Source: Labia minor
Lineage: Eukaryota; Arthropoda; Insecta; Dermaptera; Spongiphoridae
Direction: 5' to 3'
Length of the DNA stretch: 64,000 nt
NCBI GenBank assembly: GCA_963082975.1
Contig: OY720345.1
Span: 4,167,001-4,231,000 of the forward strand
The translations under genes and the position numbers were made by a program. Below, piece by piece: positions 20,173 through 45,702 of this stretch (the first letter of the stretch is position 1; each line of letters begins with the position of its first letter). The notes under the pieces are model-generated. The model was not told the DNA's origin. It saw only the letters and a program-made list of their open reading frames with translations, and did no database searches.

Positions 20173-20526
20173 TTTTACCGACCGACGATAGTAAGGGAGG
20201 TATTGTTTTCACACCAAATTTCACATGAGGAGATTTTTTACATATCTGCACGAATCATACACTTTGCATTAGTTTTATCCTAGGAAAAAATCATCTTCAT
20301 TAGTTTTTTCTTAATTTAAAATTATATAACGTAACCCAGACCTTCATGACGTCACAGCCATGGCCTCCTTATATATTATAAATAAAATTATAAATATTTC
20401 TGTTATATGCCTATCTGTTTTTTATTACATTAATAGATACATTAAAATTATTTGAATTTGTTTGCTGGAAATTAATTTATTTCAAACCGTCGGTCGGTTC
20501 TGCGCCTGGCCACATGTCAACTTATT
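20173..20526 (+). repeat. Family B HINE-like element, short complete copy
   Basis: Both ends are present: TTTTACCGACCGACG at the left and its inverse CGTCGGTCGGT near 20490, followed by a decayed hairpin (GCCTGGCCACATGTC) and AACTTATT. The microsatellite core is deleted, so the copy is about 350 bp. It keeps a TCATGACGTCACAGCC segment shared with the other complete B copies. Confidence 0.9.
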
Positions 20527-20791
20527 TAAATTATTCTACATATATATATATATATATATAGAATTATCAACTTCGTATAAACTGAAATCATTCTTAATGC
20601 TAAACAAGCTCTATCATTTAATGAACAGATATCGATGAAGAGTAAATATTTTTGGTTGTTAGTGCTTTTTTTTTACTGAATATTAATAATCTTGAAGTAC
20701 CTTTTCAGTCAAAAAAGTGTACCATATTTTTATTTCACAAATTAATCATGTTTAAATCTTATTATTTATTTTTTAAAATACTTATTATATA

Positions 20792-20825
20792 TTTTTACTA
20801 ACCGACGATAGTAAGGGAGGTATGG
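20792..20825 (+). repeat. Family B 5'-end fragment
   Basis: Only TTTTTACTAACCGACGATAG and AAGGGAGGTATGG are left. The following sequence is unrelated. Confidence 0.7.
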
Positions 20826-21449
20826 TTATATTTATGTTCTTTTTGAAATGATGAAACGAGTAGTTATAATACCACCATTTATAGACCTATTTTACTCAAG
20901 AGGTCTACATATACTTATATTTATTATATTTTATTATTTTTCAAGTCATGATTAATAATAACAAAATTTTTCTATTATACTGCTATGATAAAATAAACTG
21001 ATATAATAATAATAATAAATAATTGATGATAATTAAATTTTTCTTTTATATATCTGAAAATAGTTGAAAATATGTATATATTTGGGACAGATAAAACAAA
21101 AGTCGTCCATTTAGCTTTTTAGGTAAAAAGTTTTCTATATAGATAATTTAATAATAGCAAATCTCTAGGCAATTTACAAGTTTTATGACCTTCTCTTAGA
21201 CAAAATATTCTGCATATTGTTTACCTTTTTATTTAATATATTCAAATATATACGAAAATCCTGCCAATCCATTTTAAACTTAACTATGAATAATCTAAAT
21301 ATATTCTATTTCCTTAAACAAACAATCGATATATTGTATAAAATGATTCTGAATAAAAATAATATGAATATCTTTTTAATTGCATCACCATGATAATTTA
21401 TCCTTTTAAAAAGTTTCTTCCCTGCGGAAACTTTAAATTGTTTTGTTCT

Positions 21450-21485
<36 letters not shown>

Positions 21486-21679
21486 GCTTAGTATTCATCT
21501 CGTAAATTTTACAATGAGAAATTTATCTAGATGTACATGGACATATATATTAGTCGAAATTTTTTGTATTGTCAGTCAATAAATAATAAATTCTTATTAT
21601 TTTCCTCACAATTTGTAAGATAATTGAATATTGCATATTTTGTTTTACTACTATTTGTAAACCAAAAATGAATATGAAA
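20826..21679. other. AT-rich DNA, no gene seen
   Basis: (CT)n tract at about 21452-21481. No ORF or repeat match recognised. Confidence 0.55.
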
Positions 21680-21860
21680 TACGATGGTCATTCAACAAGT
21701 ACTTAGCCTCACCGCCCGATGGCGCTGCTATCACAAAGGTGTTTTACCATCATGTAGTACATTCGTTTACTAGCCTACTGTCAAAGTTTCAGTCAATTCC
21801 CTTCACTAGTTTTGTTTTGACAGCCTTTGGAAGCGAGCGAACTTGTTGAATGACCCTCTA
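21680..21860. mobile_element. Mariner-type MITE
   Basis: About 177 bp with inverted ends GGTCATTCAACAAGT at the left and ACTTGTTGAATGACC at the right. A TA target duplication flanks it at 21680-21681 and 21859-21860. The interior (GCCCGATGGCGCTGCTATC and a GTTTTGACAGCC stretch) resembles the untranslated end of a mariner element, with no transposase frame. It depends on a transposase supplied from elsewhere. Confidence 0.85.
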
Positions 21861-22825
21861 ACTTAAGTATAAATAATATTTTATTTTTATTCTTAAAAAA
21901 AAATTATTTTATTTTATTTTAACACATTTCCAAATAAACTTAAATGATTACTTAAATTATTTTTAAATTGTATTTCTTAATAGAGAATTTAATTTATAAA
22001 TTAAAAAGAAAAAATCGTACTAGCTTTTTATAACGAAATAGAAATTTATTTGAAAATTCTACATTGATCAATTAGTCGAAATGATAAAATGTATAAATTT
22101 AACTTTTTATTTTCGTAATTATAAAATCAACATTATTAAGATCTTCTTGAATTGTGATCATTTAATTATGCATTGCAAAAGTTCAAATTAAATTAAAATT
22201 TGATCTCACATGTCATTAATTGAAATTAATTATTATTATTATTTTCTACTTTTGCAATAGTAATAAATTTCTTCAGATCTGGTAAATGACATTTCGCTTA
22301 GCGTAGGTTTGTCATTGGAATGGTCTCTTATCTTCATCTTCATTTCTATAGTGGCATGAGACTAAATAAAGAAAAGGGCTCTATAAAAAAGACAAATTTC
22401 TAGCTATTCGCTCTAATCGACCACTTACTACTTGATAACAGTCGCGAAAATTCGCGAAAAATTATTATCGAATGATTGTTCTTTAACCAACCAACTTCAT
22501 TTCCAAATATTTATCAACCATAAATTTTTTAATTTAATTTTCTCTTCCTTCTCTTTATTAATTAAATTAAATTAATTATTAAATCAACAAAATTTTATTT
22601 TCAATTCTCGTTGTTGTTTATTTTTTGGAGAATTATTTTACATACCAATCCCAAATTTTTTTTTATAATTTTTTGTAAATAAAGTTAATATAAATTCGTT
22701 GTTTGTTAGAACATATTACAAAAAAATTGTTTGTCACAAGATTACAAATCACTTTATTATAAGGTGATAATTTTTCGATTACTGGAATAAAATAAAAATA
22801 AATTCTCAAAGATTCATTTTTTTCC
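21861..22825. other. No gene recognised
   Basis: AT-rich apart from a mixed patch at 22280-22460 without a supported reading frame. Confidence 0.5.
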
Positions 22826-22858
22826 TTTTTACCGCACGACGATAGTAAGGGAAGTATA
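22826..22858 (+). repeat. Family B 5'-end fragment next to an A copy
   Basis: TTTTTACCGCACGACGATAG plus AAGGGAAGTAT, then a break about ten bases before a family A element begins. Either A inserted close to a pre-existing B fragment or B was truncated by it. Confidence 0.7.
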
Positions 22859-22867
22859 TGGGACTCT

Positions 22868-24526
22868 TTTTTTACTATCTCACACGAGATAGTATTGCGA
22901 TCACGAAAATTTTCGATGTCGCAATTTTGATGTTTTTATACGTTTTGAAGGTGCCTGAATCATTTTCACTAAGGTTGAGAAAAATATCTGTGTATGTAGA
23001 CAAAATTACATAAAAACGGTTTGAACTAGAATAATGAAATTTGGTAATACCTACGGGCATTATTCAAAATTCGTAGTTTTCTATCAACTTTTGAGAAATG
23101 GAGCTCATCCGGAAGAGAGTCATTACCTACCACGTTTTGATTTTTTTCCTCTAAACTAAAAGATATATATTTGATAATTTTTCAAATGACTAAAAATTGT
23201 ATAAAACTGCTATATATAGAAAATCAGCTTGATTCAATCGCTGAAAGTACCGGAATTAATTTTTTAACACTTTTTTAACGCGCCAGCACGTGACGTCAAC
23301 TAAGAGTCAAATACGCGCTGGTTTAATAAATATTATTTATTGATTTTAATTTATAATTTAATTTAAATATAATATATATATATATATATATATTACCGAC
23401 CGACGATAGTAAGGGAGGTATTGTTTTCACACCAAATTTCACATGTGGAGATTTTTACATATCTCCACGAATCATGCATTTTCTTAACAGAAAAAAGTAT
23501 TTTTAGCATGATGTCTGTCCGTCCGTCCGTCCGTCCGTATAGATGTGTACAGCCTGAACGGCTAAACCGATTTTGATGAAATTTGGTATATTTACTTAAT
23601 GCATCAGTGGGATGAATTGATCAACTTTTGGTGCAAATCCGGAAACCGGAAGTGATCCGTCCGTCCGTCCGTCCGTCCGTATAGATGTGTACAGCCTGAA
23701 CGGCTCAACCGATTTTGATGAAATTTGGTATATTTACTTAATGCATCAGTGGGATGAATTGATCAACTTTTGGTGCAAATCCGGAAACCGGAAGTGGTAG
23801 TATTAGCGATCGACGATAGGAAGGGAAGGGTTATTTTCACACCAAATTTCACATAAGGAGATTTTTTTACATATCACCACGAAACATGCATTTTCTTAAC
23901 AGAAAAAAGTATTTTTAGCATGATGCCTGTCCGTGCGTCCGTCCGTCCTTCCGTCTGTCCGTATAAATGTGTACAGCCTGAACGGCTCAACCGATTTTGA
24001 TGAAATTTGGTATCTTTACTTAATGCATCAGTGGGATGAATGGATCAACTTTTGGTACAAATCCGGAAACCGGAAGTGGTAGTATTAGCGATCGACGATA
24101 AGAAGGGAAGGGTTATTTTCGCACCAAATTTCACATAAGGAGATTTTTTTACATATCACCACGAATGTATTGGTTTTATCCTCGGGAAAAATCATCTTCA
24201 TTATGTTTTTCTTAATTTAAAATTATATGACGTCACCCAGCCCTTCATGACGTCACAGCCTCGGGTAACGCCGGCTACTTCAGCTATATATTATAAATAA
24301 AATAAAATTAAAAATATTTATGTTTTATCCATATCTGTTTTTTATTACATTAATAGATATATTAAAATTATTTGAAATTGTTTCTGTAGCTGGAAATTAA
24401 TTTACTTCAAACCGTCGGTCGGTTCGGACCTGGCCACAGGTCAACTTATTTCTTTATTTATATTTATGTGTTAATTAATCCAATTCAAATTTGCGAGATA
24501 GTCGAATGGAGACACTCCAGCTTATT
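22868..24526 (+). repeat. Family A HINE-like element carrying a nested B element
   Basis: Starts TTTTTTTACTATCTC with the 5' hairpin around 22873-22895, runs through the A core to the AT-rich 3' region (about 23392), is interrupted by a complete family B element, and resumes at about 24451 to end GCGAGATAGTCGAATGGAGA, CACTCCAGCTTATT. The nesting shows that this B copy is younger than this A copy. Confidence 0.9.
23393..24450 (+). repeat. Family B HINE-like element, longest copy, with internal repeat units
   Basis: Complete ends: ACCGACCGACGATAG at 23394 and CGTCGGTCGGTTCGGACC, TGGCCACAGGTCAACTTATT at the right. The 3' hairpin GACCTG-GCCA-CAGGTC is perfect. Internally the (GTCC)n, AAATTTGG, ACCGGAAGTG block of about 140 bp is tandemly repeated (about 23516-23655 and 23656-23795) and recurs near 23929-24080. 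The GATCGACGATA motif appears at about 23808 and 24090. Confidence 0.92.
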
Positions 24527-25612
24527 ATTTTTTTTTTTAATTCTTTACTCCAAAATGTAATGCTCATGGTTTATTAAAATTTACGATTAGTTTTCTTTTA
24601 TTTATTTATATTTATATATTTATAATTTTCGATCTATAATCTATTTAATTTATTTTCAAATGGAGAATTATGATAACTTTGTTTATTTTAATCTCATTAA
24701 ATCAAAATACGCTCTAATTTGTTTAAATTCATTCAAATGTTCAAACTTTTAAAAAACTTAAAAAATGATCCCTTTAATCTTCTCAGTTTAAGAAGTTTAA
24801 ATTTTAAGTTTAACAAGTTTAATGTGCAACTTGTAAATTATTAATTTAATTTAATAAAATATAATTCTTTTATTTTTTTTTTTAATTTAAAATTAAATCT
24901 ATTCTTAATTCAATTAATAAAACTTATATATTACTTCCTCTATATAACTTACTCTTAGTAAACTCTAGTATGGTAATTGAAATGGAAATTATAATTAATT
25001 GCTCGTCCTCATAAGACATTTAATTATAATTTATGTTTGCAATGGATCGTATATACATTGTATACTATCGAGATATTGACTTGATAGCTTCCTTCAACTT
25101 CCCTTCCACCATTCCCTTCAAGATATCACTTACTATTTTGGAATTGGTTGTTGGCTCATTCAAACAGAACGAAATTCTATCCCTTCCTCTTGCTCTATTT
25201 ACCATCTAAGCGTGCTGCCTTATTATTTGTTTTAACACATAGTTACACTACACACTTTTTTGGTGATTGATTTTCCACCTCAATTACCATGGATTATTTA
25301 TATTAGAGCTCTTTTATTATAAAAAAATAAAAAACAACAACAAACAACTTTAAACTTTTATCATATTTTATTATATCAATCTTCATAGGGCACAATTAAA
25401 TATTATTTAATCTGAATGATATACTAATAAATAAATAAATAAATGTCAATTCATCATTAATATAAAGAAATCAATGATTTATTTTTTTTTTTTTCGGATT
25501 TGCAAATCATATTGTTCTACTTTAATAGGATGCCGAACTCTTTTTTCATGAATAAGTGAAAGGAATTAAAGATTAATAGACGTTTTTTTTTCTCTTGCAA
25601 TCGCTTTAGTCA
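24527..25612. other. AT-rich DNA, no gene seen
   Basis: No supported frame or recognised repeat. A mixed patch around 25060-25220 has no ORF of note. Confidence 0.55.
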
Positions 25613-25822
25613 TCCTTGAATAAAAAAAAATACTTTACTAAATAATTATTTATTAATCGGATGATCATTCAATTGTAACTTTTTTTTATAAATTAAATTT
25701 TAGCAAAGATTTGATATCATATTTCTTTCTTATATTTTTATATTAATTCCTATTTTTACTCTTGTGAAATACTAGTATAATATAATTATATATTAGATTA
25801 TTTATCAGTATAATAAATTTTA
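25613..25822 (+). repeat. Source flank of the duplication found at 30836
   Basis: This AT-rich segment just upstream of SINE copy 2 matches 30836-31027 closely along its length (CTTGAATAAA at one end, TATTAGATTATTTA at the other), with a few substitutions and small indels. It is otherwise unremarkable. Confidence 0.9.
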
Positions 25823-26089
25823 GAAGGCTCCATTGGGTGTGTGGGTAGCGAACCTGCCTCACATTTACATGGTCCTGGGTTCAAATCCCAGGCCTGGCAA
25901 GGGAATTTCCCTAGCTGGGGTCTATGGGACGGAGTCAATCCAGCCTCCGGGAACAACATTGAGGAAAAGCTACTTGATAGCGCCTCTGGTCAAGAAAAGG
26001 TAAAGGTTGAGAGGACCCGTTCTATTGATCATTGAACACCTCATTGATAGGCGTTGTCCTTGCGAAGGACGTACAAAAGTCAGAGGTTT
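25823..26089 (+). repeat. tRNA-derived SINE, copy 2, nearly complete
   Basis: From GAAGGCTCCATTGGGTGTG to GTACAAAAGTCAGAGG. The B-box region reads GGGTTCAAATCCC. The body contains CTATGGGACGGAGTCAA and TTGATAGGCGTTGTCC. The normal poly-T 3' tail is absent. The SINE abuts a mariner fragment, so I see no target duplication. Confidence 0.88.
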
Positions 26090-26106
26090 GGAGTTGATCC
26101 GATTCT

Positions 26107-26260
26107 GTGTCAAACCTTAAGAAAACAGAACGACCGCGTCCTACTCGAAAAGAAGAAAACATTGTTTCCGTGCATGACAATGTGATCGTAAGTCCATCAT
26201 CACCAAGTTCACTGCATATCATCCTTTCAAAAGATCTGAAAATACTTCTTTCAAAAAACA
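26107..26260 (+). pseudogene. Mariner-like transposase N-terminal fragment
   Basis: The plus-strand frame reads RPRPTRKEENIVSVHDNVIV, then a serine/proline stretch, then SLHIILSKDLKI. This matches the end of the second helix-turn-helix region of arthropod mariner-type transposases (pattern R-P-R-T-x-R-T-x-E-N-I-x-x-V, then S-L-x-R-I-L-x-K-D-L). About ten residues of the recognition helix seem to be missing and no catalytic domain follows. The frame continues into a poly-A and AT tract. Dead fragment. Confidence 0.6.
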
Positions 26261-26689
26261 AAAAAAAAAAAAATTTGATAAAAAATACAATTAAGTAAAT
26301 CTTTTGAAAAAACAATGTGATTAAACAACTCTTATTATATTTTAACTTGAACTTGATCTCTAATTTTATTTCAATTTCTATTTATCTACCTGTAGCGTCG
26401 CATTCGTAAATAATCTCTGATTAAAAAAGTCCTGATCCTTTCTTAAGATGCTGCATTTAAAGAAAAAGTTTCTCTTAAATCTTTTATTCTTTTTTTCTGT
26501 CTCACTCTATCTATATATTATTACTTACTTTCGATATATTCTTAAAAATTGTAATCACTTTTTTTTTGATTTTTACTCAAATTCACTCTTCTCTTCTTAT
26601 CAATGATGGTTTATGATATAATATTTACCTATAAATTATTGATTTCTAATGTATTTATTTCTTTTTTCTCTTTGAATTATATATATATA
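26261..26689. other. AT-rich DNA, no gene seen
   Basis: Ends in a short (AT)n tract that forms the insertion site of the next A copy. Confidence 0.55.
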
Positions 26690-27304
26690 TAGCTGGAGTG
26701 TCTCCACTCGACTATCTCACAATTTGAATTGGATTAAATAACATAATATATTATATTTAAATTAAATTTAATTAATTATAAATTATAAATTGAAATTAAT
26801 AAATAATATTTATTAAACTAGCGCATGTTTGGCTCTTGGTTGATGGCACCACGTCACGTGTTGGCGCGTGAGATTTGAAGTGTTAAAAAATTAATTATGG
26901 TACTTTCAGAGATTCAATCAAGCTGAAATTTTATACCAATAGCAGTTTTATATAATTTTTAATCATGTGAAAAATTATCAAACCTATATCTTTATTTTTA
27001 GGGTCACTTTAGAGGAAAAAAAATCAAAACGTTGTAGGTAATGACTCTCTTCCGGTTGAGCTACATTTCTCAAAAGTTAATAGAAAACTACGAATTTTGA
27101 ATAATTCCCGTATACCAAATTTCATTATTCTAGCTCAAACTGTTTTTGCGTAATCTTGGTTACATACATACACACAGAGAGACAGACATTTTTCTCAACC
27201 GTAGTGAAAATGATTCAGGCACCTTCAAAACGTATAAAAACATCAAAATCTCAACATCGAAAATTTTCGTGATCGCAATACTATCTCTGGCGAGATGGTA
27301 AAAA
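26690..27304 (-). repeat. Family A HINE-like element, complete
   Basis: On the minus strand it starts TTTTTACCATCTCGCCAGAG and ends ACTCCAGCT at 26691. The core carries the TG/CA microsatellite, the AAATTTGGTA motif and GCGCCAACACGTGACGTGG. The 3' GCGAGATAGT motif is mutated (tgtgagatagt) but the GAGTG-GAGA-CACTC hairpin is intact. Confidence 0.92.
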
Positions 27305-28594
27305 TGACTCCGTATAAACACAAAGAAACAATACTGCCTATTTTTACGCAGGAAATCCTCACAGTTTTCTTCCTGAGAGAATCCTAACAGTATTTTATTT
27401 TGTTTGCAATTCCCGCGATGTAGCTATTATTATTTGCCAGGTATAATAATCTACTATAATTTTTTTTTTGTTACAAGTGCTTCCTCCCCTCATCACTTTT
27501 CCTAAACAAGTTCTTATCTTCTGCCTCAAGTGTCATCTAATGTTAATTTCTTTTTGAACCAGCAAGGAAATTCATTTTCATTTACATAAATTTAAATAAA
27601 TATGATTAAAAGAGGAATGCAGTTGGTGATTAAGTTGGAAATGAATGGTTAACAGCACAAGATGGGATGATGTGCCATTTGGAAATTAGGTCACCCAGAG
27701 ATCAACGAGGTGGGCATTTCGCTTGGCGATACCCCCCCTTTTTGTTCACCCTAAAATATCTCCCAACGATATCGATCCACCCCTGAAATAGCATCCAATT
27801 GCATGTTTTCAAAGATATACATACATACACTTGAATCGGATAAACTTCAAGGAGTTATGCTTTTTATTTATTTATTTATTTTGTAAAACTTTGTTATAAA
27901 TTATCTCATATAATATTATTCCACTGACCTAGATCTTAAGAATATTACTTTTTTAATATAACACATACATTTCTTCATTTATTTAATTGATTTTCTTAAA
28001 GTTCATCATTCTTCTTCATTAAATACTGAACTGTTTTTTTTTTTTGTTTTTTGTAAATACAAATTACAATCAATTAATATTGATTCATGATTTATGTTAT
28101 AATCATATATATATATTGTGATGATTTTTTTGTATATGGGTGAATATCGAAGGGGAAAATCTAAGAAAAAGAAGGGTTGGTCTCATACGTGTGTAATGGA
28201 AAAGGGTGGACTTTGAATCGGCGTGAACTGATCTGGAGATCTACAAAAAAGAAAAAAAATATTAAATTTATCATTAAGAATTAAATTTATAATAAGATTT
28301 ATTATATTTAATGTTTAAATATAAATTTTTAAAACCTTTAAAGATTTAAATGTAAAGATTTTAAATTATAAAATTATATACAGAAATTTTTTTTTTTTAT
28401 TTTTTATAAAATAAAAATAGGAAGACGTTTTATAAAAGTTATAACTAAACCAATATTTGTGTGTAAACAATTTTTTAATTTTTGAATTATAAAATAAAAA
28501 AACAATCCTTCTCGGAAAACAATATTTTTTGTTAATAATGTAGCCGGACCTTTCGTAGGAGATAGTCCGTGGACGACCGAGTGTAATGGTGGTC
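27305..28594. other. No gene recognised
   Basis: A mixed-composition patch at 27640-27800 and another at 28140-28250 lack a supported frame. The rest is AT-rich with short (AT)n near 28105. Confidence 0.5.
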
Positions 28595-28768
28595 CTTTTT
28601 TACTTTCCCGCATACTTCGTATAAGGGAAGTATTGGAATCGTCAAAAATTTCGACTTCGAGATTTCGATAGATCTTGACGTTTTAGACCTCCCTGAGTCG
28701 AAAAATACCATTTTTCGAATTATGTCTGTGTGTGTGTATGTATGTATGTATGTATGTATGTATGTATG

Positions 28769-28799
<31 letters not shown>

Positions 28800-29250
28800 T
28801 GTCTGTAAGCAAATTTACTCAAAAACTAATCAAGCTAGGACTTCTAAATTTGGTACACCGATATTATTCACAATTTGTAGATTTCTATCAAAATTTCGTC
28901 AAAATCGGTTAACCGGAAGTGGTACTTTACCTACACTGGTTGCGTTTACCTTTCAAGTAAAGTACCAGTTTGCTTCGAGATATTTGCTTCCTATTTTGTA
29001 TATAGATTTAAAAATATGAAAAAAATTGAGATACCAAATTTCATCATGATCTGACTACCGGAAGTGACATTTTACCTATACAAGTAGCGTTTCTTTTTTA
29101 CCGACCGACGATAGTAATGGAGGTATTGTTTTCACACCAAATTTCACCTATGGATATTTTTAGATACCAAGTTTACACATTCTAAATATTCATTCACAAC
29201 TCTTTATACCTATTTATATGCGGGAAAGTCTAGGGGAGGACACTCCCGCT
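28595..29250 (+). repeat. Family C HINE-like element, only copy seen, with a B fragment inside
   Basis: Starts TTTTTTACTTTCCCGCATAC and ends with the 13-bp inverse TATGCGGGAAAGT, a hairpin GGGAG-GACA-CTCCC and GCTTATT. The 5' end can fold (ACTTTCCC with GGGAAGT). A seed ATGTCTGT starts a (TATG)n array at about 28722-28798, which explains the repetitive tyrosine/methionine and histidine/threonine ORFs there. The core after the array (AAATTTGGTACACCGATATT and ACCGGAAGTGG) is clearly related to family A. No protein is encoded. Confidence 0.88.
29094..29165 (+). repeat. Family B 5'-end fragment inside family C
   Basis: TTTTTTACCGACCGACGATA through CACACCAAATTTCACC, then a break. Only the first 70 or so bases of B remain. 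Confidence 0.8.
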
Positions 29251-30001
29251 TATTTCTTCTAATACAGTCCGTCTGCTCTCGACGGTAGCCCATGAACGAA
29301 TGCCCTTGTCTCTTTTCAACAAACGTATTACAATAATAATCCTTTCCAAAAATAAATTTATTTTTAAATAATATTTTTTTTTTTTTTATTATTAATGATA
29401 TTTTTAAAATATCATACACTATATATGTATATAGTTTATTTTTTATAAATTTCTATTTAATTTAATTTTAATAAATTTAGAAAATAATTATATGTATATT
29501 TATTTATTGATATTTAAATCGCCTTTTATTTTAAAAATATTTCGAAACATAAATCAACGAGATGCAAAAATTGACCTTTAATTTCGATTCATCTTTAATT
29601 AATTATAGTTTAAAAAAATATCTATCTATCGTTTGTATTTTTAATTAATACTTATTACAAACTTAGATAAAATATCAAAATTTAATATTTTTTTCAAAAA
29701 GAAGTTTTCTTTATCCATTTCTTTTTTTTTTTTTCTTATCCCTCTCTTGGAAATAAAGATTTAGGATTTAGTTGGATGCATAAATTGTCTAGGTGAAAAA
29801 TTTACTAATTCATTAAAACTTTGAGGATATGATTTATTTTGGTATGCTTTTTATCACAAAAAAAAAAAAAAAAAAAAAATCGATAATTGGATGAAAAAAA
29901 ACTTTTAAAAAGTACCCTTCTTCCATTAATCAAAAATTCAACCCGAGAGTACAGCGTTTTTTATTTTTATTTTTCTCTAATAATTTAGAAGATAATTATT
30001 C
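29251..30001. other. AT-rich DNA, no gene seen
   Basis: Poly-A run at about 29860-29879. The short ORFs here are AT-driven. Confidence 0.55.
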
Positions 30002-30642
30002 TTTTTACTATCTCGCCAGAGATAGTATTGCGATCACGAAAATTTTCGATGTTGAGATTTTGATGTTTTTATACGTTTTGAAGGTTCCTGAATCATTTTC
30101 ACTAAGGTTGAGAAAAATGTCTGTGTGTGTGTGTGTATGTGTGTGTGTATGTGTGTATGTGTGTGTGTATGTATGTAGGCAAGATTACGCAAAAACGGTT
30201 TGAGCTAGAATGATGAAATTTGGTACATGGACATTATTCAAAATTCATAGTTTTCTATCAACTTTTGAGAAATGTAGCTCAACCGGAAGAGGGTCATTAC
30301 CTACAACGTTTTGATTTTTTTTCCTCTAAAGTGACCGTAAAAATAAAGATATATGTTTGATAATTTTTCACATGATTAATAATTGTATAAAACTGCTATA
30401 TATAGAATTTCAGCTTGATTGATTCGCTGAAATTACCAGAATTAATTTTTTAACACTGCAAATCTCACGCGCCAACACGTGACGTGGTGCCATCAACAAA
30501 AAGCCAAACATGCGCTGGTTTAATATTTATTATTTATTATTTATAATTTATAATTAATTAAATTTAATTTAAATATAATATATTATGTTATTTAATCCAA
30601 TTCAAATTGCGAGATAGTCGAGTGGAGACACTCCAGCTAATT
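30002..30642 (+). repeat. Family A HINE-like element, complete reference copy
   Basis: The best copy for defining A. It has TTTTTACTATCTCGCCAGAG with a perfect 8-bp 5' hairpin (ACTATCTC/GAGATAGT), the ATGTCTGT seed and (TG)n/(TATG) array at 30117-30176, AAATTTGGTACATGG, CAACCGGAAGAGGGTCATTA, an AT-rich 3' part, the inverse subterminal motif GCGAGATAGT, the hairpin GAGTG-GAGA-CACTC and a CAGCTAATT end. It is about 640 bp with no coding capacity. Confidence 0.95.
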
Positions 30643-30760
30643 TTAATTTTAGTTTATTTAACTATTAAAACAAATCATAGATATAAATAAATTATAACAA
30701 TTTTCTAAATTATTTATTCTATTCATATTTATTTAAATATAGAAGTTATTTTTGGATACG

Positions 30761-34861: not shown

Positions 34862-34902
<41 letters not shown>

Positions 34903-35442
34903 GTATGTATACCTTTAGGGATATTAACTCGTGGATGTTAAGCAGGCTAAATATCATTTGAAATTGCTTTAATTTATATTCTCAATCCTATAATCCGGAT
35001 AATGCGAACGATATATTTTTTCGACAGAATAGCCAACGTTCTGTATTAAAACAAGTGAACAAATGAAAATTTATGAAACCCATTATTCAATCGGTTTTCT
35101 ATGTGCCCAAATAACACACCACTACTCTCACAATATCACCAACTGTGATTAGATTTGTTAAGGCTTCTTTTTATCTATCTAATATCTGTAAAATTATCAA
35201 ATATCCTTAAATAATTATGTCATTCATAGAATCCATTGAAATAATTTGGAACTTTTTATTTTATTCAATGTATTTATTTTTTTTTCCGTGACATATAATG
35301 TATTAACTTAAGCCCGAGAAATTGAACCTCACCAGCTAATTCTAAAATTAAGATTAAATAAATAAATAAATAAATTTGAATAAATGTTAAGAATGGCATA
35401 AAAATGAGCATAGATCTTAAAATCAATGAAATTAATAAAAAA
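34667..35442. other. AT-rich DNA with TG-rich microsatellite
   Basis: (TAA)n at about 34667-34686 and a (TG/TATG)n array at 34845-34912. No gene seen. Confidence 0.55.
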
Positions 35443-35796
35443 ATAAGCTGGAGTATCTCGCAATTTGAATTGGATTAAATAACATAATATATTATATTTA
35501 AATTAAATTTAATTAATTATAAATTATAAATTAATAAATAATAAATAATATTTATTAAACCAGCGCATGTTTGACTCTTTGTTGATGACACCACGTCAGG
35601 TGTTGGCGCGTGAGATTTGAGATTTGTGTTAAAAAATTAATTCTGATACTTTCAGCTATTCAAGAGCACTTTTATATAATTTTTAATCATGTGAAAAACT
35701 ATCAAACCTATATCTTTATTTTTACGGTCACTTTAGAAGAAAAAAAATCAAAACGTTGTAGGTAATGACCCTCTTCAGGTTGAGCTACATTTCTCC
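35443..35796 (-). repeat. Family A HINE-like element, 5'-truncated, head-to-head partner
   Basis: Minus-strand copy whose 3' end (ACTCCAGCTTATT on its own strand) is at 35443. The hairpin and subterminal motif are partly deleted (only CTGGAGTATCTCGCAATTTG is left). It stops in the middle of the core at GAGCTACATTTCTCC, where a poly-A run begins. Confidence 0.85.
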
Positions 35797-35841
35797 AAAA
35801 AAAAAAAAAAAAATTCAATTTGGTTTTCGTTAATCAGAGAC

Positions 35842-36435
35842 TTTTTACTATCTCGCCAGAGATAGTATTGCGATCACGAAAATTTCCGATGTTGAGATTT
35901 TGATGTTTTTTTACGTTTTGAGGGTTCCTGAATCATTTTCACTAAGGTTGAGAAAAAATGTCTATGTGGGTATGTGTGTATGAATGTAACCAAGATTACG
36001 CAAAGCTAGAATGAAATTTGGTACATGGGCATTATTCAAAATTCATAGTTTTCTATCAACTTTTGAGAAATGTAGCTCAACAGGAACAGTGTCATTACCT
36101 ACAACGTTTTGATGTTTTTTCTTCTAAAGTGATCGTAAAAATAAAGATATAAGTTTGATAGTTTTTCACATGATTAATAATTGTATAAAACTTGTATATT
36201 TAGAATTTCAGCTTGAAGTACCAGAATTAATTTTTTAACACTGCAATTCTCACGCGCCAACATGTGACGTGGTGCCATCAACAAAGAGCCACACCTGCGC
36301 TGGTTTAATAAATATTATTTATTATTTTAATTTATAATTTACAATTTATAAAATTGAATTTAAATATATAATATATTATGTTATTTAATTCAATTCAATT
36401 TGCGAGATAGTAGAGTGGAGACACTCCAGCTTATT
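35842..36435 (+). repeat. Family A HINE-like element, complete, head-to-head partner
   Basis: TTTTTACTATCTCGCCAGAG at the left and a GAGTGGAGACACTCCAGCTT end at the right. It lies 45 bp from an inverted A copy, so together they form a large imperfect inverted repeat. The TG microsatellite is short. The 3' subterminal motif reads GCGAGATAGTAGAG. Confidence 0.92.
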
Positions 36436-37388
36436 TTCTAATAAATAAATATCGTAGTTTTGTGTTTATTTTCCTTATAAGCATAGATGAAAAATAATAT
36501 AAATATTTGAATTCTTATATTCTAATTATATTATTTACAATAAAATTATAATTCATGTCGAAAGTATCTAAAATTTTTGATGGAGGATAGCTTTATGCTG
36601 GATTATTTTACTTAATTCAAATAACAAGTCACATCTTCCCCAATATGTCGCCATCTCTTTTATGATTTAAAGCTATTTTTAATTCGTTCCAATAGAGAAA
36701 AAATAAAAATAAATAAATAAATAAAAATTGAAGCTGTGACCACCACTCTCGTTTGCGATGATCGATTGACAACATTCATTAACGAAAACTGTCATTCGCG
36801 GCCTGTGCTCCCGGATTCATTTATTTCCTGTTTAAATTTGCTTCCTATTATATGCAAAATATCATTGAACCATTTATATTTATTTATTTATTTTTTATTT
36901 TTTTTTTTTTATTTTATATGAAAATAATTGCAATTTCTTTTTACCATCCTCTCTCTTCTCTTGTCATGATTCTATTCGATTACAAATAAATATAATATGT
37001 ACTTGTATATACACTTAAATTCCCAAGTTAAAGCAAAAAAAAAAAAAAAACAAAACAAAACAAAAAACAGAAATGTTTCATATTTTGTTTTGTTATTCAT
37101 AGATTCATAGTCAGTTTAGACACAAGCGAGGTTTTTCTTTCTCAATGTCTCGTTTCCTTCTCCCGCCACTGTAATTTTTTCTTTCCTTAAAGAAGAATGT
37201 TTCTTAAAAATATCAACCATGATAGATCTATCCATTTCATAAAAAATATATATAGATAATTTATCTTAAAAAAACAAAACAAAATCAACTATTTTCTTTG
37301 TCATTTGTGTGTATTGTTAATCTTAGAAAAATTTTAACTAATCTTTAATAGAGATAATATTTTAGTTTAATCTAAATTTATTTTTTTT
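36436..37388. other. AT-rich DNA, no gene seen
   Basis: A poly-A and CAAAA tract near 37037-37070. No supported frame. Confidence 0.55.
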
Positions 37389-37474
37389 TAACTTATAGTA
37401 ATTTTGAATTATTTCTATTCTATTTCATATTTGATCGATTGACTTTACAATATTGTTCAATCAGATCGATTTTT
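37389..37474 (+). repeat. 86-bp direct repeat, left copy
   Basis: TAACTTATAGTAATTTTGAA through CAGATCGATTTT recurs at 39241-39327 with only two or three differences, bracketing the interrupted A copy. Confidence 0.9.
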
Positions 37475-39243
37475 CATTTTCTCCCCAGAGATAGTATTGC
37501 GATCACGAAAATTTTCGATGCTGAGATTTTGGTGTTTTTATACGTTTTGAAGGTTCCTGAATCATTTTCACTACGGTTGAGAAAAATGTCTCTCTGTGTG
37601 TGTGTATGTATATGGACAAGATTACGCAAAAAAACGGTTTGAACTTGAATCATGAAATTTGGTACATGGGCATTATTCAAAATTCGTAGTTTTCTATCCA
37701 CTTTTGAGAAAGGTAGCTCAACCGGAAGAAAGTCATTACCTACAACGTTTTGATTTTTTTTCCTCTAAAGTGACCGTAAAAATAAAGATATATGTTTGAT
37801 AATTTTTCACTTGATTAAAAATTGTATAAAACTGCTATATATAGAATTTCAGCTTGATGGAATTGCTGAAAGTACCAAAATTAATTTTTTAACACTGCAA
37901 ATCTCACGCGCCAACACGTGACGTAGTGCCATCAACAAAGAGCCAAACATGCGCTGGTTTAATAAATATTATTATGAATTTTATAAGTCGTTTTAGGTAT
38001 ATTATTCATAAGGAATAAGAACCTAGACCCAGACAGATAATTGATTTTGGTATATATAGTATGATTAGTATTAAATGAATTATTTATTATATATTTACTA
38101 CCCTCCCCTTTTTTATTATGATTAATTATTAACATTGATTAATTTATTTATTGTTACGCGATGAAAATATTATGTAATTGTTCTGTCTATTATAATGAAG
38201 AGTAAGTGCTTCTGTTCTGTGCTTATCACAACCTCTTAAACATCAATTATAATCCATGAACGGATGAAATAAAAAATTGATATGGAATCTACAGTTTGCG
38301 TATATCATTCATGTTTTCTTTACATTTCTATTTTTGTGATATTATCATTAGAAATATATATAAGTATATATATTTAGATATTTAGATTCTTCAATAATAA
38401 AATTTTATTTATTAAATTATTTATTTAATAATTTATTAATATATATTATAAATATAATATATTTTATAATTTATTTATTTTATTTAATAAATATTTGATT
38501 CTTAGTAAATGATTATCAGTCAATATTCTTTTTTAAATTATTTTTTTAATAATTACAATAAATTATTATTATAATATAGATAATATTATTTTTTTTTAGA
38601 TAAAAAGTAAAATAGGACCTCACCAGCACAATTCCACTAATGATTTTTTTTTTCTAATTGTTTGATAAGCAACTCGGCTAAATTTCATGGAAAAACAGAA
38701 TATAAATAAAAATACGATTAAAATTTCTTTATTTTAATATTTATTTTAATAAAATCTTTTAGTTTGCATTGTAAAGTGAATATGAACGGTTGGGCTGTCT
38801 GTCCGTCCACCTTGCCAGGTAATTAATCCATTAATAAGTATTTTATTCATTCTCTTTAATTAGAAAGATTATATATTTATTGTTTGTTTTCTATCCACAC
38901 TTTCTATTAAAATGAACATTTTAATTAATTATTCGTTTTTTTTGGTTTTTTTTTGGATTACATTATTTGATTTTTACGACTAAATTTTATCTACTTTTTG
39001 GTCATTTATTCCATTTTGCATTTTTCATGCTCTCATCATCAACTTTTGAATATATTAATTAATTCATTACAAATATCCATCAAAAAAGATTTGGCCAAAC
39101 ATGCGCTGGTTTAATAAATATTATTTATTAATTTTGATTTATAATTTATAATTAAGTAAATTTAATTTAAATATAATATATTATGTTATTTAATCCAATT
39201 CAACTTGCGAGATAGTCAAGTGGAGACACTCCAGCTTATTTAA
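37475..39243 (+). repeat. Family A HINE-like element split by a 1.1-kb segment
   Basis: The left part (to 37974) has a decayed 5' end (TCTCCCCAGAGATAG), the TG array and the core down to GCGCTGGTTTAATAAATATT. The right part (39092-39243) restarts at GCCAAACATGCGCTGG and ends CAAGTGGAGACACTCCAGCT. About 32 bases are therefore present on both sides of the intervening segment. Confidence 0.88.
37975..39091. other. 1.1-kb segment inside an A element, origin unknown
   Basis: AT-rich, no ORF or terminal repeats recognised. It is flanked by a duplication of about 32 bases of A. It is too long and unstructured to call a transposon. Confidence 0.5.
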
Positions 39244-39327
39244 CTTATAGTAATTTTGAATTATTTCTATTCTATTTCATATTTGATCAATTGACTTTAC
39301 AATATTGTTCAAGCAGATCGATTTTTT
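39241..39327 (+). repeat. 86-bp direct repeat, right copy
   Basis: Second copy of 37389-37474, placed immediately after the A element's CTTATT end. Confidence 0.9.
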
Positions 39328-40106
39328 TTTAAATGATACAAATTAAAAATGGTAAAGTAGAGATGAATTGAATGTTTTATTTTTTTTTTTTTTTTTTTTT
39401 TTTTGTAATTAATTAAATATTTATAATGAAAAATTTAATTTAAAACTTTTCATAAAATTGATTCAATTGTTTTTTTACTTTCTTCCTGACAAATATTTAT
39501 GATCCTTTCAATGGTTTTCATTAAAATTCATATTTTTTTAAATTTTTTTTTTAATAAAACATTTTTTTATTCCAACATCATGATTGATTTACAGTTTATT
39601 CCCGCATTTCTACTTATTTACATTTTTTTTTATCATTGACACCTTACTAATTTCTTCAATTTTCGTCTCTCATTTCACATACAAAATTCATATTATTTTA
39701 TTCTTGTACAGATTTTTTTTAACTATTTAGAGTAAAACTTTTGCTTTAAGAATTTTATTATTATTTGTCATTTAAATAAACTCTCTCTATTCAACTATAA
39801 AAAAACAAATGTCCTTTGGTGCACAATATGCGATATGAGAGTCACACATCTGTTTTTGTCGAATGCCTATTATATACATCGACAAGGATATCTTGTAAAA
39901 TTACAAATATAAATATCAGGGATCTATTAAGAAAGAATTTTGAAAATTTGTTTAACTTCCTTTATAGCATTAGTTTATTAAACATAATTTAATTTATATT
40001 GTTTAGTTAGATTCATTGTTATTATTTATTTATTGAAATTCTAGTATGGGGTCCCTTTACAGTCCCTAATTTGAGCTGTGATATTTCATTTGTTTATTTG
40101 TTTATT
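39328..40106. other. AT-rich DNA, no gene seen
   Basis: Poly-T run at 39380-39404. Nothing else recognised. Confidence 0.55.
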
Positions 40107-40228
40107 TATTAGATATCTATCTATCTATCTCTGTGGCTCTACTGAACTCGAAAGTTCTTGACCGCAGCCAGCCCACTTCTCCAAGCATCCTTATTCTGAG
40201 CCACAACCCTCCAATCCCACTGGGAATT
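40107..40228 (-). pseudogene. LINE C-terminal tail with (GATA)n 3' end
   Basis: The minus-strand translation reads WRVVAQNKDAWRSGLAAVKN then FRVQ and a stop, followed by GTAGAGCCACAGAGATAGAT and GATA units. This is the end of ORF2 of the same non-LTR family seen at 53570, 56010 and 63356. Only the last 30 or so codons are left. A reverse-transcriptase piece in the same orientation lies upstream on its strand (40775-40905), with an A element between them. Confidence 0.8.
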
Positions 40229-40282
40229 GCCGAATCTCCTATTATATTTAACGTAACCGTTTAGCGTAACCTAATACTTCAA

Positions 40283-40760
40283 TTTTTACTATCACGCCAG
40301 AGATAGTATTGCGATCACGAAAATTTTCGATATTGAGACTTTGATTTTTTTATACATTTTGAAGGTTCCTGAATCATTTTCACTAAGGTTTAGAAAATTG
40401 TCTGTGTGTGTGTGAATGGGTATGTGTAGACAAGATTACACAAAAACTGTTTGATTGATTCATGAAATTTGGTGAACGGGCATTATTCAAAATTCGTAGT
40501 TTTCTATCCACTTTTGAGAAATGTAGCTCAACCGGAAGAAGGTCATTACCTACAACGTTTTGATTTTTTGTCCTCTAAAGTGACCGTAAAAATAAAGATA
40601 TAGGTTTGATAATTTTTCACATGATTAAAAATTGTATAAAACTGCTATATATAGAATTTCAGCTTAATAGAATCGCTGAAACTACCAGGATTAATTTTTT
40701 AACACTGCAAATCTCACGCGCTAACACGTGACGTGGTCCACGTGGACACTCCAGCTAATT
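40283..40760 (+). repeat. Family A HINE-like element, 3'-deleted copy
   Basis: TTTTTACTATCACGCCAGAG at the left. The core runs to ACACGTGACGTGG and then jumps directly to the last bases, GTGGACACTCCAGCTAATT. About 130 bp of the AT-rich 3' part, the subterminal motif and half of the hairpin are gone. Confidence 0.9.
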
Positions 40761-40774
40761 TTGTTTAATTGAAT

Positions 40775-40905
40775 TCCGTTTGATTTTCCCCCAATTTGTC
40801 TAATTACATATTCTAGAACTAAATTAAATAAAATTGGTGATAATGCTTCTCCTTGTTTTAACTCATTCCGAATTTTGTAAGTTTCTTGACAATTGATTCC
40901 CGCTT
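40775..40905 (-). pseudogene. LINE reverse-transcriptase fragment
   Basis: The minus-strand frame reads ELKQGEALSPILFNLVLEYV then IRQIGGKSNGIQLN. This is the conserved RT block that normally reads LKQGDALSPLLFNLALE followed by G-I-x-L. The region normally carrying the catalytic YADD is absent. The orientation matches the LINE tail at 40107, so both probably come from one degraded copy that was later split by deletion and the A insertion. Confidence 0.8.
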
Positions 40906-42110
40906 CCTATTTATTAGATATTGGTTGATCAATTAGAGAAAGATTTTTGGTTGGAGACAAATATTATCTTTTCTAAGTGATTTATCTACACGGGCACAAA
41001 AAAAGTCAGTCAGGATTCACTAGTTTCTGTTAACCTGGCTGTGCCCCGGCAAAGAATACTAAATTCTCTCTGAAAGATAAGAAGTGAAAAACTAATCTTG
41101 TTTAGAAATAATATCGACTATCAGACATTGTTTTTTTTTTGATTCATATATTTATATTATTAATATATAAATCAATATTTATACCAATCTCTAATAATAA
41201 TGATATTTTTATAATATATATTTTAATGAATTTTAATTAATCATTGGTTACATAATTCATTTCTATAATAAACAACAAAACAACTCCATCAGTATGATAA
41301 TAAATAAATAAATAATAATAATAAAAAAAAAAAACAAAACAAATTTAGGCAGGCTTTCAATAGCTTTGCCATTTATTAATTAAGAACTCCATTTTGAGTG
41401 GCAGGCTCCGCTTGTATTTTTTTCAAGTTTAATTCTGTCTGTTAGTATATATCGACGTTTATTGTTCCAACTGATAGCTGTCTGCGAATAGGACATCCAA
41501 ATGCTGGCCAACAGACTTAATTGGAAAAATGCAATCGAGCGAAGTGGAAAGTACATGTCAGCCAGTCTGTATGTATGAACAATTTCTCCCCCTCCCCTCT
41601 CTCCCCCCTCTCACTTTATACGATACAACATTGGTGTATTTGCCTTCATCTGCATTCGAGACCACCTTGGCTCGCAGACACTAACAAGTTCGTCGAGACA
41701 TGCACCTCGCACTCGAAACTGATTCCACGACATCGATTTTTATAGCTATCCAAGTTCAATTTTATTCTCAAAAGCGCGATTCTTTATTAGAAACCTTCCA
41801 TCTTTCCTACACAATTGACATTGGTTTTAAAAAAATAGCATATTCATGTTTTGGAATCTTAATTTTAGTCCTTGATTTACAATCAAATCTCATAAATTCT
41901 ACTAACAATCTTGCTCATCGAGTTGGTTCCTTATTCATTCCACCTTTCAAGGCTCCTTAAATGCATTCGTGGCTAATTTATGAAAACATAATTGGAAACT
42001 ATTAAACAAATTTGATTTGTTTTCGTTGTCTGTCATTTAACTGAGTAATAACCATATTCATTTAATGAATATCATCGTATATAATCTCCTAAAAAATATC
42101 TTTATATTTA
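40906..42110. other. No gene recognised
   Basis: A mixed patch at 41390-41740 carries two overlapping short ORFs (74 and 86 residues) without domains. CT-rich tract at 41587-41612. Confidence 0.45.
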
Positions 42111-42595
42111 AAAGACAGTTCTATCACATACTCCTCCAAAACGACTTATGCGATTTGGGCCATTCCAATGCCATTGGATAGCCCTCCGGCTAATCTATTA
42201 ATAGCGTGAAATTCATTGGAAAACAAGAAATACTTTTTGAGAAAAGTGAAAAAATAATTTTTTTTCTTACTTTTTATTATTTTTGACGTCATTTGTGACG
42301 TCACATCCATTGCCTCTTAGATCTTATAATATTTTTCAATCTTTTGCGTTTCAATTTCTTTGCGTGTGAGGGCTCTCACACTGGTCCGCTAATCTATAAT
42401 TAATTTACTGATTAAATTAAAATATATTTTAAGTAAGAACACAAAAAGAAAGGAATGTTTTATGTAATATACGAATTGAAACAAAATGGATGAAAACCTT
42501 TTACTACTTTCAACCAAATACTATGTACCAATCGGGGGTACAGGGGGCGGAGCCCCTTCTAGGTGTGAAGAGCGCCAAAGGCATGTAATTTATTT
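42111..42595. repeat. Unclassified repeat-like patch with two hairpins
   Basis: A perfect hairpin GTGTGAG-GGCT-CTCACAC (about 42364-42381) is followed within ten bases by GCTAATC, and a second, GGGGC-GGA-GCCCC (about 42546-42558), lies in a GC-rich island. The stretch TGACGTCATTTGTGACGTCA (about 42283-42302) echoes the paired TGACGTCA motifs of family B. It may be a remnant of another HINE-like family, but no left end was identified. Confidence 0.3.
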
Positions 42596-42958
42596 TTCTA
42601 TTTAAACCAAATTATACCTTTATTGATTATTAATTCCAAATATTTTTAATGTTCATTTCTCATTGGTGTGTGAGGGTGATATATTATTTTTTTCTCGTTT
42701 TCATTTCCTCCCATTTTCCTACATTCACATTCACTACATTCAACCTTTCTTTTCTCTCTGGATTTCATTTGGTCTGAGGAAAAGACTTACACTTTTCTAC
42801 CCAAGACAATTGTCGTCCTTGACTCTCTATTTCACGGAAATTGGACTTTTTTCTAACTCTGACATCTTTAATCCTTTAAATATTTTAGCGCAACGTTTGT
42901 CTTTTTTGTTCAAATCTTTTCTTTTTTTTCCGGTTGTTCTGTAACAAATTAATTCATA

Positions 42959-42996
<38 letters not shown>

Positions 42997-44351
42997 CCTT
43001 TTTCTAAATACAAATTAAATTAAAACCTTCATCTGAAATTAATACAATTAATGATTTAAAAATAGTACAAGCCTTTTACTTTTCAATCGGAAAAATTTCT
43101 CAATTTTTCGATAATAAAATATCTATGATATATATATATACATGATCCATTTTTCATTTTTCACGTTATTCTGATTCCAAAAAAGTGGTTTTCTCATTGA
43201 TTTATTTTGCCTCCCCCCCTCCTCATCCTCCCGAAACTTTAAATTTACAAGCTCACGTTGCTTTTTTCATCTTTTTAATTATTTTATACTATAATAATTC
43301 TATTATTCATTTTCAAAGTGTGTTATGTACTTTACATTTAAATGGACATACTTATATCTCTTTACTATATCATATTACTATATTTATGTTTACTATATCA
43401 TCACATATCTCTTTACTTACTTATTATATAATACTTTAAAAATCTTATAAGTATCTTCAATCAAAGAAACTTTTTGGAAAACAAACTATATGACTTTATT
43501 TATATTTATTTAAACATAGAATCCATCTGACAAATTAATTCTCCAGTCAAAAAAGCTTTTTTCTATATATTTAATTCATTCATGACATTAGAAATAAATA
43601 CTACGCACATTTTTAAATAAATCTAACAAGTTTTAATTATCTCAGAGGGCATTAGTATGACGTGTTTTTAATAAAGAATATTTAACGTGTAGTACCAATG
43701 GTTTTATTTTGTTCCGTATGAGCTATATTTCATATTTCAATGTTATTAAATGCTTTGCGCCTTGGAATTACTTCCATCAAGTATATAATTTTTTTTACTC
43801 GCTCGCTGAACGTGTAAAATCGATTTATCTATAAATTTTCTTTACTAGCAAAAAAATAGTAAAAAGATTTTGATAGTAAATGTATTTTTCACTTCTCTTT
43901 AAAAACAAAATTTTCATTAAGAAAAACATAACAAACAAACAAAATTGATTTTTTATTTTTATTTTAATCTTATTCAATTATTTTTCTTATTACTCTTTAT
44001 AATAATGGTTAATTTTTTTTTATCTTATTCAATATGCAAATCTTTCTCTTATATGTACTTAAAATATATAATACAATAACTTTAAGATGAAATATTTATT
44101 TAGATAAATAAATATCTTTTTAAATATATAATTATAATAATTTTATTAATAAGATAAATATAATTGAATTACAGTTAGTATCTTTATTGTATAAAGCAGA
44201 TAGATTAAATAAATTAAAATGGATTATTATGATTAATTTCACTTTATTATATATAATCTTTTAATCCTAAGAACTTTTTCAATATTTATAATTTTATTTT
44301 AATCTATTTTCATTTGAATAGAAAACCTCCGTCTCTTAAATGAAGTGAATT
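42596..44351. other. No gene recognised
   Basis: (AT)n at 42962-42994. ORFs of 84-93 residues at 42663-42944 and 43185-43439 are phenylalanine- and isoleucine-rich with no domain. Confidence 0.5.
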
Positions 44352-44550
44352 TCCATGAAAATCCATGAATTGAGATACGAATTGTTCCCACATCCGCCCT
44401 ATTCACCGGATTTAGTCCCTAGTAACTATTTCTTATTTCCAAACCTGATGAAACGGCTCTGAGATTGGACTCCAATGATGAAATCATCTCCTAAACAAAT
44501 AACTATTTTGATGTCCTCGACAAATCTTATTTTTTGAAAGGAATAACAAA
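44352..44550 (+). pseudogene. Mariner transposase C-terminal fragment
   Basis: The plus-strand frame reads HELRYELFPHPPYSPDLVPS then NYFLFPNLMKRL and a stop. A second frame continues NDEIIS and, after another stop, NNYFDVLDKSYFLKGI. This is the catalytic end of a mariner transposase (usual text PHPPYSPDLAPSDYFLFPNL), including the third acid of the DD34D triad. That aspartate is asparagine here. With a frame change and stops the fragment is dead. It ends exactly where a family B element begins. Confidence 0.88.
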
Positions 44551-45170
44551 TAAGTTGACCTGTGGTCAGGTCCGAACCGACCGACGTTTTGAAATAAATT
44601 AATTTCCAGCTACAGAAACAATTTCAAATAATTTTAATATATCTATTAATCTAATAAAAAACAGATAGGCATATAACATAAATATTTTTAATTTTATTTT
44701 ATTTTTAATATATATGTAAGACCAGGCTGTGACGCCATGAATGGCTGGATGACGTCATATAATTTTAAATTAAGAAAAAAACTAATAAAAATGATTTTCC
44801 CGAGGATAAAACCAATACAAAGTGCATGATTCGTGGTGATATGTAAAAAATCTCCTTATGTGAAATTTGGTGTGCAAATAACCCTTCCCTTCCTATCGTC
44901 GATCGCTAATACTACCACTTCCGGTTTCCGGATTTGCACCAAAAGTTGATCAATTCATCCCACTGATGCATTAAGTAAATATACCAAATTTCATCAAAAT
45001 CCGTTGAGCCGTTCAGGTTGTACAAATCTATACGGACGGACAGACATGATGCTAAAAATACTTTTTTTCTGTTAAGAAAATGCATGATTCGTGGAGATAT
45101 GTAAAAATCTCCACAAGTGAAATTTGGTGTGAAAACAATACCTCCCTTACTATCGTCGGTCGGTAAAAAA
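44551..45170 (-). repeat. Family B HINE-like element, complete
   Basis: Minus-strand copy. Its 3' end (AACTTATT preceded by a hairpin, here GACCTG-ACCA-CAGGTC) is at 44551 and its 5' ACCGACCGACGATAG end at about 45168. It has one microsatellite block, two TGACGTCA-like motifs (one mutated) and the CCGGAAACCGGAAGTGG core. About 620 bp. Confidence 0.93.
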
Positions 45171-45320
45171 GGTTGCTCACCGGTGCTGTTAAAAATAAAA
45201 TACTCACTCAGTTACAAATTAGTCTAGAGTGGTCTAAAGATATACATATATACTATGAAATGATTATTTTAAACCAATAAGTTTTGCGATATCATTTGAC
45301 ACTTTTACTATTAAAAAAGA

Positions 45321-45702
45321 AATAAGTTGACCTGTGTCCAGGTCCGAACCGACCGACGGTTTGAAATAAATTAATTTTCAGCTACAGAAACAATTTCAAA
45401 TAATTTTAATATATCTATTAATGTAATAAAAACAGATATGGATAGAACATAAATATTTTTAATTTTATTTTATTTATAATATATAGCTGAAGTAGCCGGC
45501 GTTGCCCGTGATCATAATAAGAAGGCTGTGACGTCATGAAGGGCTGGGTGACGTCATATAATTTTAAATTAAGAAAAACATAATGAAGATGATTTTTCCC
45601 GAGGATAAAACCAATACATTCGTGGTGATATGTAAAAAATCTCCTTATGTGAAATTTGGTGCGAAAACAATACCTCCCTTACTATCGTCGGTCGGTAAAA
45701 AC
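45321..45702 (-). repeat. Family B HINE-like element, short complete copy
   Basis: Same orientation as the previous copy and 150 bp away. Both ends are intact (ATAAGTTGACCTG at 45322 and CGTCGGTCGGTAAAAA at the right) but the microsatellite/AAATTTGG core is deleted, as in the 20173 copy. It keeps GGCTGTGACGTCATGAAGGG. Confidence 0.92.

Follow-up and report, generated by a model that had tools for sequence, protein, structure and literature searches.

The elements closest to those described here are the Helentrons and their non-autonomous relatives (HINEs) of the mite Metaseiulus and the DINE-1 elements of Drosophila, which, in the available part of PMC4067079, are characterized by subterminal inverted repeats, a partly palindromic 5' repeat, a 3' palindrome, microsatellites, insertion into T-rich targets without duplication and a Rep/PIF1 partner. 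The sections consulted of three further reports describe Helitron2_Cv of Calliphora vicina, with 11-bp subterminal repeats, a partial inverted repeat beside the 5' one, a GTCY-rich stretch and a 3' hairpin with a 9-bp stem (PMC3630058); FoHeli, a Helitron2-type element of Fusarium with asymmetric inverted repeats, hairpins at both ends, a T-rich target and joined-end circles (PMC5148889); and Helraiser, which needs its 5' end but can do without its 3' end, and two of whose new 3' ends shared two bases with the target, as happens in one-ended transposition of IS91 (PMC4778049). The window analyzed here is a 64,000-nucleotide stretch of the Labia minor genome (contig 2:4,167,001-4,231,000; 26% GC; host genome 604 Mb in 71 contigs) carrying three families of short non-coding repeats, A, B and C, which have the structural features listed above for the HINEs of PMC4067079; insertion into T-runs without duplication is seen for B and C, and a Rep/PIF1 element is tied to A by its 3' end. 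In addition B is very like Helitron2_Cv in the features given, and all three families resemble FoHeli in their asymmetric inverted repeats, hairpins and T-rich target, although the FoHeli terminal sequences are different. HINE families with these features are already known. Differences from the Metaseiulus elements are that the repeat of A is 10 bp whereas PMC4067079 requires 11 or more identical bp for its families, and that C, unlike those HINEs, contains a truncated B. B also occurs as a 31-base copy of its 5' module, here called mini-B; the consulted sections of PMC4067079 and PMC5148889 do not mention such copies, the Helitron2_Cv copies annotated in the corresponding part of PMC3630058 measure 136 to 767 bp without a 31-base form, and no description was recognized among the papers that term searches of the open-access literature listed, subscription journals lying mostly outside the scope of that search. 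We put at roughly 0.75 the probability that A, B and C are HINEs moved by Helentron-type Rep/PIF1 machinery, with A served by a Helentron of the type designated e1, A and C being sister families and B existing also as 31-base units.

Matches to the 5' motifs with at most two mismatches numbered 10 for A, 8 for B and 1 for C in the window against expectations of 0.25, 0.00 and 0.01, far above chance and in agreement with the motifs and positions of the original prediction, which had been made from the letters of the window alone; among the ten A matches that at 28597 is the C copy and that at 43792 seemingly a chance occurrence. Genome-wide, the exact 5' motifs were present 14,973 (A), 24,943 (B) and 1,221 (C) times and the reversed-pattern controls not at all. 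Subterminal inverted repeats of 10 bp (A), 11 bp (B) and 13 bp (C) are present at both ends, RGTATTG directly follows the 5' palindrome in each family, a 3' palindrome lies near each 3' end, and the 3' subterminal repeat, hairpin and CTWATT end were as predicted. A scan blind to the family motifs (TTTAC followed by a k-mer, then further downstream the reverse complement of the k-mer, a hairpin and finally [AC]T[TA]ATT) of the window plus 89 fetched loci produced 46, 44 and 42 matches for k = 8, 9 and 10. All of these belonged to A, B or C, and the reversed sequence yielded none. The totals include overlapping loci more than once, and the window is the sole unbiased sample; there, 10, 8 and 7 matches were found, with 0 after reversal. 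The common end plan of A, B and C is therefore real, and no fourth family sharing it was found in the window plus 89 loci. Some copies (A in L080, L069 and L048; C in L084) end in the hairpin plus ATTTTT rather than the hairpin plus CTWATT, from which the 3' stop may be loosely defined.

Median lengths of distinct complete copies from the fetched DNA, after exclusion of nested outer copies and of pieces below 100 bp, were 633 bp (16 A), 627 bp (19 B) and 1,183 bp (10 C). Mean pairwise identities within the main length classes were 91.8% (11 A), 94.8% (15 B) and 97.6% (7 C), and because of this highest identity C looks the youngest of the three families; the fetched loci were mostly picked by A, B or C motifs or as Rep neighborhoods and are not a random sample. 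The copies in the window, numbered from its first letter, are as follows.

10516..11293, minus strand: A HINE by motif matches, 5' motif with two mismatches, beyond the interval 20173..45702
20177..20526, plus strand: B HINE, short form with decayed 3' hairpin; 5' end by search, 3' end by reading the sequence
20797..20827, plus strand: decayed mini-B (31-base 5' module alone), three mismatches in the first 29 bases, non-B DNA behind
22831..22859, plus strand: doubtful mini-B, five mismatches, end not ATTGTT
22874..24526, plus strand: complete A HINE with a B copy nested within it, both ends found
23395..24450, plus strand: B HINE, long form, nested in the preceding A copy, ends found
26687..27299, minus strand: complete A HINE, both ends found
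28602..29254, plus strand: complete C HINE, a composite that includes B 5' sequence starting near 29100; ends found
30007..30642, plus strand: complete A HINE, both ends found
35847..36435, plus strand: complete A HINE, both ends found
44549..45164, minus strand: complete B HINE, ends found
45321..45696, minus strand: complete B HINE, short form, ends found
57478..58164, minus strand: A HINE by motif matches, 5' motif with two mismatches, beyond the interval 20173..45702

Empty sites were sought for 44 distinct complete copies by searching with their joined flanks. A junction-spanning match of some kind was obtained for 17 copies; nine were convincing, six for B (L040, L044, L051, L056 and one on each strand of L063) and three for C (L049, L053, L080), the other eight being AT-rich, partial or self matches that were left uncounted. 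In all nine paralogous sites the target T-run was preserved and there was no target duplication. The fetched DNA also contains the B-internal target of three of the nine insertions 40 times without an insert, and the A-internal target of two of them 16 times, always with six T; both counts include overlapping loci. The leading T-run is thus target DNA lying outside the element, and its assignment to the element in the original prediction has to be given up. At L049 the element end CTTA is followed by TC and the matching empty site is TTTTTTCTTAATTT, so the final TT of most copies is likely also target; this suggests [TTAC...CTTA] or [TAC...CTTAT] as the best notation, and end ambiguity of this kind over one to two bases is reported for HINEs in the available part of PMC4067079.

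A Helitron_like_N search of the genome returned 104 matches in which both the GLPH (Helitron) and GSPH (Helentron) types were represented. At contig 1:47.86 Mb the element e1 has an intact open reading frame (ORF) of 2,181 amino acids with Helitron_like_N (2.8e-23), DUF6570 and PIF1 (3e-24) matches and with GSPH in its Rep, a Helentron sign according to the section of PMC4067079 consulted. An A 3' end lies about 1.25 kb behind this ORF in the same orientation without an A body preceding it, and over 47 bp, which take in some T-rich flanking bases, the e1 3' end is identical to that of an A HINE. A second copy at contig 1:44.69 Mb (L087), which begins inside the ORF and is without about 1 kb between its two e1-matching stretches, is 98.6% identical to e1 over 143 bp at the end of the ORF and 99.2% identical over the last 249 bp to the A end. 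The two copies lose homology directly behind AGCTAATTTTA, the exact A 3' end, and a 45-base pattern for the junction (at most three mismatches) is present at two places in the genome, both of them behind these Helentron ORFs. Divergence at the exact A end and a junction found only behind the ORFs are direct evidence that A's exact 3' end is the end of an intact Rep/PIF1 Helentron, which presumably also bears A's 5' end. HINE identity as originally predicted is accordingly supported from two sides, by B and C empty sites without target duplication and by an A 3' motif set that ends an element encoding Rep/helicase. To the extent that the material allowed the comparison, neither of the two results named in the original prediction as refuting it, target duplications and partners with a DDE transposase, was obtained. 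The further proposal that the families are served by different autonomous partners holds for A alone, and there for the 3' end; the loci read yielded none for B or C, and A and C are sister families (below).

Two other candidates were rejected. An ORF of the GSPH-bearing e2 type (L071/L072), considered as a partner of A, has an A copy nearby, which is an ordinary HINE in the opposite orientation. The first C copy of L076 was considered as an autonomous C end, but a 1.6-kb stretch compared with the e1 helicase protein gave no match. Among the 30 Rep loci of the search that were read, with 1.5-kb flanks only, a single B 3' end was present (L033), which may be independent of the Rep gene. A retrotransposon lies directly upstream of the copy on contig 60, a subfamily at contig 1:55.8 Mb showed no A, B or C end in 2,601 bases, and no such end was found on contig 63. 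Contig 63 itself (L088, L089; 25.6 kb, GC-rich) contains the same Rep/helicase-bearing stretch twice, about 17.7 kb apart, and looks unlike the rest of the genome. Seven loci of the GLPH type (L015-L021) have equal scores and ORFs of 1,537-1,652 amino acids and probably represent a recently active canonical Helitron.

Comparison of the ends qualifies the original description of the three families as having unrelated ends. Over the first 80 bases or so each of the pairs A-B, A-C and B-C scored above 500 of 500 shuffles. The 3' ends of A and C align with a score of 56 (500 mononucleotide shuffles: mean 20.6, maximum 33); the corresponding A-B score of 32 is marginal, being equalled by 3 of 500 shuffles, and the B-C score of 24 is chance-like (92 of 500), so that the description stands for the 3' end of B. 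Between the subterminal repeats of A (ACTATCTCGC / GCGAGATAGT) and those of C (ACTTTCCCGC / GCGGGAAAGT) there are two differences, each compensated on the opposite arm. Compensated changes together with aligned ends therefore indicate that A and C are sister families from one ancestor whose arms were kept complementary, B's 3' end alone appearing unrelated. Complementary arms would fit annealing of the ends, or recognition of both by one protein domain.

The relationship of B to C takes a different form. In 8 of the 13 C 5'-end loci of the fetched DNA (the window, L049, L053, L055, L076, L078, L079 and L080) a B 5' end is present at the same inner place, AGTAGCGTTT; in L079 the B body is followed by resumed C sequence without B's 3' end, and an earlier C copy in L076 has no inner B. 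A shared inner place and a B without its 3' end point to an old, 3'-truncated B that was amplified inside C. The B 5' end at 29095 is accordingly part of the C copy, which corrects the original description. On the minus strand of L076 (about 1468-1507) two C copies stand head to tail, the second beginning in the 3' end of the first (CTCCCGCTTTTTTAC). Within B itself, for example at window 18786 and L059 1782, the 5' region recurs in diverged form, so B is partly an inner duplication. Part of a B element is also included in the approximately 4.6-kb unit of a tandem array at contig 1:37.78-38.12 Mb, seen as 68 evenly spaced matches among the first 100 listed for the pattern of a break inside B.

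By analogy with Helitron work, movement of these elements would begin with a Rep nick at the junction of T-run and AC, followed by displacement of the strand 5' to 3' by the helicase, with the 3' hairpin aiding termination, and insertion of the displaced strand into a new T-run would leave the target unduplicated. As for the subterminal repeats, the two arms of a pair may anneal, or one protein domain may bind both.

Of 30 loci retrieved with the exact B 5' motif, the sample on which the share of minis among B 5' ends rests, four (L039, L050, L066, L068) contain only the first 29-31 bases of B, to GGTATTG plus TT, and then other DNA over the 1.5 kb read, without the 3' subterminal repeat or 3' hairpin. 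For L066 a paralogous empty site in L043 reads T9 against T7-[29 bases]-T4 in the filled site, that is 31 bases added, and for L050 the empty site in a repeat of L084 shows a 34-base gap in a T-run of differing length. Insertions of the 31-base B 5' module alone have therefore occurred at two loci; no empty sites were found for the minis of L039 and L068. When the 40 bases behind 48 distinct B 5' rows were scored against the B body, 41 rows scored at least 57, one inner pseudo-end 33, and six rows, including window 20797-20827 and the doubtful 22831, 12-23, random AT-rich sequence reaching a maximum of 32 in 300 tries. Genome-wide, a mini pattern consisting of the exact 22-mer GACGATAGTAAGGGAGGTATTG and following bases unlike the B body was present at no fewer than 1,702 places (847 + 855; reversed control 0), and all nine places for which letters were seen, L050 and L068 among them, read ATTGTT and then diverge. 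Since the pattern passes about 57% of true minis if the DNA behind is about 13% C, a fair guess at the true total is about 3,000. Corresponding patterns, estimated to pass about 22% (A) and 30% (C) of true cases, found 1 place for A and 2 for C, where at B's rate hundreds and tens of minis, respectively, would be expected by our estimate. For comparison, a pattern that places the break deeper in B matches 533 places, an upper limit since B variants count too, and in the first 34.7 Mb or so of contig 1 the places listed number 100 for minis and 30 for the further-in break; on this comparison the excess of minis over ordinary breakage is a few-fold, and the fixed break point is the sharper evidence.

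The likeliest route to these insertions is one-ended transposition that would halt directly behind the 5' palindrome, its TT overlapping the T-run. The TT may correspond to the two-base overlap of Helraiser, although Helraiser inserts into AT and its new 3' ends vary in place (PMC4778049, relevant part), whereas mini-B stops at one fixed place. That the 31-bp module is a complete transposable unit, with start and stop signal in one palindrome and thousands of copies, is a tentative proposal to which we give somewhat less than even odds. It is also possible, at a likelihood short of one half, that minis are not abortive copies of full B and are instead a self-propagating 31-bp lineage derived from one B copy with an internal deletion, as the one fixed break point, the lack of intermediates and the restriction to B might suggest; however, no mini-specific variant was seen and the fully read minis match the B consensus over 29 bases, all minis having been chosen by exact motifs. 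Scars, formed where a B 5' end was joined to a T-run and host repair removed the remainder at the palindrome base, or where a full B was later deleted internally, would predict the same sequence and the same empty sites but are unlikely, as the 5' palindromes of A and C are stronger and yet their patterns have 1 and 2 places, and deletions arising later should not all share a single break point. Less probable still is that the non-B DNA following these 1,702 5' ends belongs to the interior of longer B-ended elements, partners or captured DNA with 3' ends further off: Helentrons are long and the sequence read past each of the four minis covers only 1.5 kb, but the empty sites of L066 and L050 show only some 31-34 bases added and the nine places with letters all diverge behind ATTGTT. 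For the families as a whole, miniature inverted-repeat elements of a DDE transposon, or canonical Helitrons, would also be short and non-coding with inverted repeats near their ends, a reading of very slight probability given the absence of target-site duplication in B and C empty sites, the asymmetry of the ends with their 3' hairpin, the Rep/helicase element that shares A's 3' end, and ends of the form AC...CTWA(TT) in T-runs, not 5'-TC / CTRR-3' into AT.

Several results count against the assignment of A, B and C to Helentron-type machinery with additional 31-base B units. No convincing empty site for A was among the 44 copies tested. The e1 ORF has weak matches to an endonuclease domain, Exo_endo_phos_2 (6.9e-5; 23.1 bits against a cut-off of 27.4), and to Peptidase_C48 (Ulp1; 8.5e-4, below the Pfam cut-off), the best solved structure for its tail being SENP8 (0.0045). 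No A 5' end is present in the approximately 3 kb upstream of this ORF, which hold the 5' part of a B copy instead, and no A end was found in the 2,001 bases read at a third Helentron copy on contig 10. The 5' end of this B copy, some 2.5 kb in front of the ORF, is followed by an ordinary B body, which makes a nested B HINE likelier than a hybrid e1 with a B 5' and an A 3' end. The Rep loci read contained no autonomous partner of B or C. Minis with empty sites are two only, and the predicted 5' palindrome of B, with its interrupted stem, is the weakest of the three (-1.4 against -5.9 for A and -4.2 kcal/mol for C), so hairpin strength does not explain why minis are peculiar to B.

Elsewhere in the window, positions 2-4077 on the minus strand contain two long ORFs, pol-like and gag-like as judged by eye, that resemble a Gypsy-type retrotransposon.

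One genome here ties a Rep/helicase gene to the 3' end of one family, which bears on how Helentrons select their ends. The matched subterminal-repeat changes of A and C are a natural covariation test, and mini-B offers probably thousands of natural insertions of a 5' end only, isolating what the 5' module can do; insertions of 31 bases would easily slip past repeat annotation. If the module is indeed a complete unit it would be among the smallest mobile elements and would provide natural proof that a Helentron-type element can dispense with its second end.

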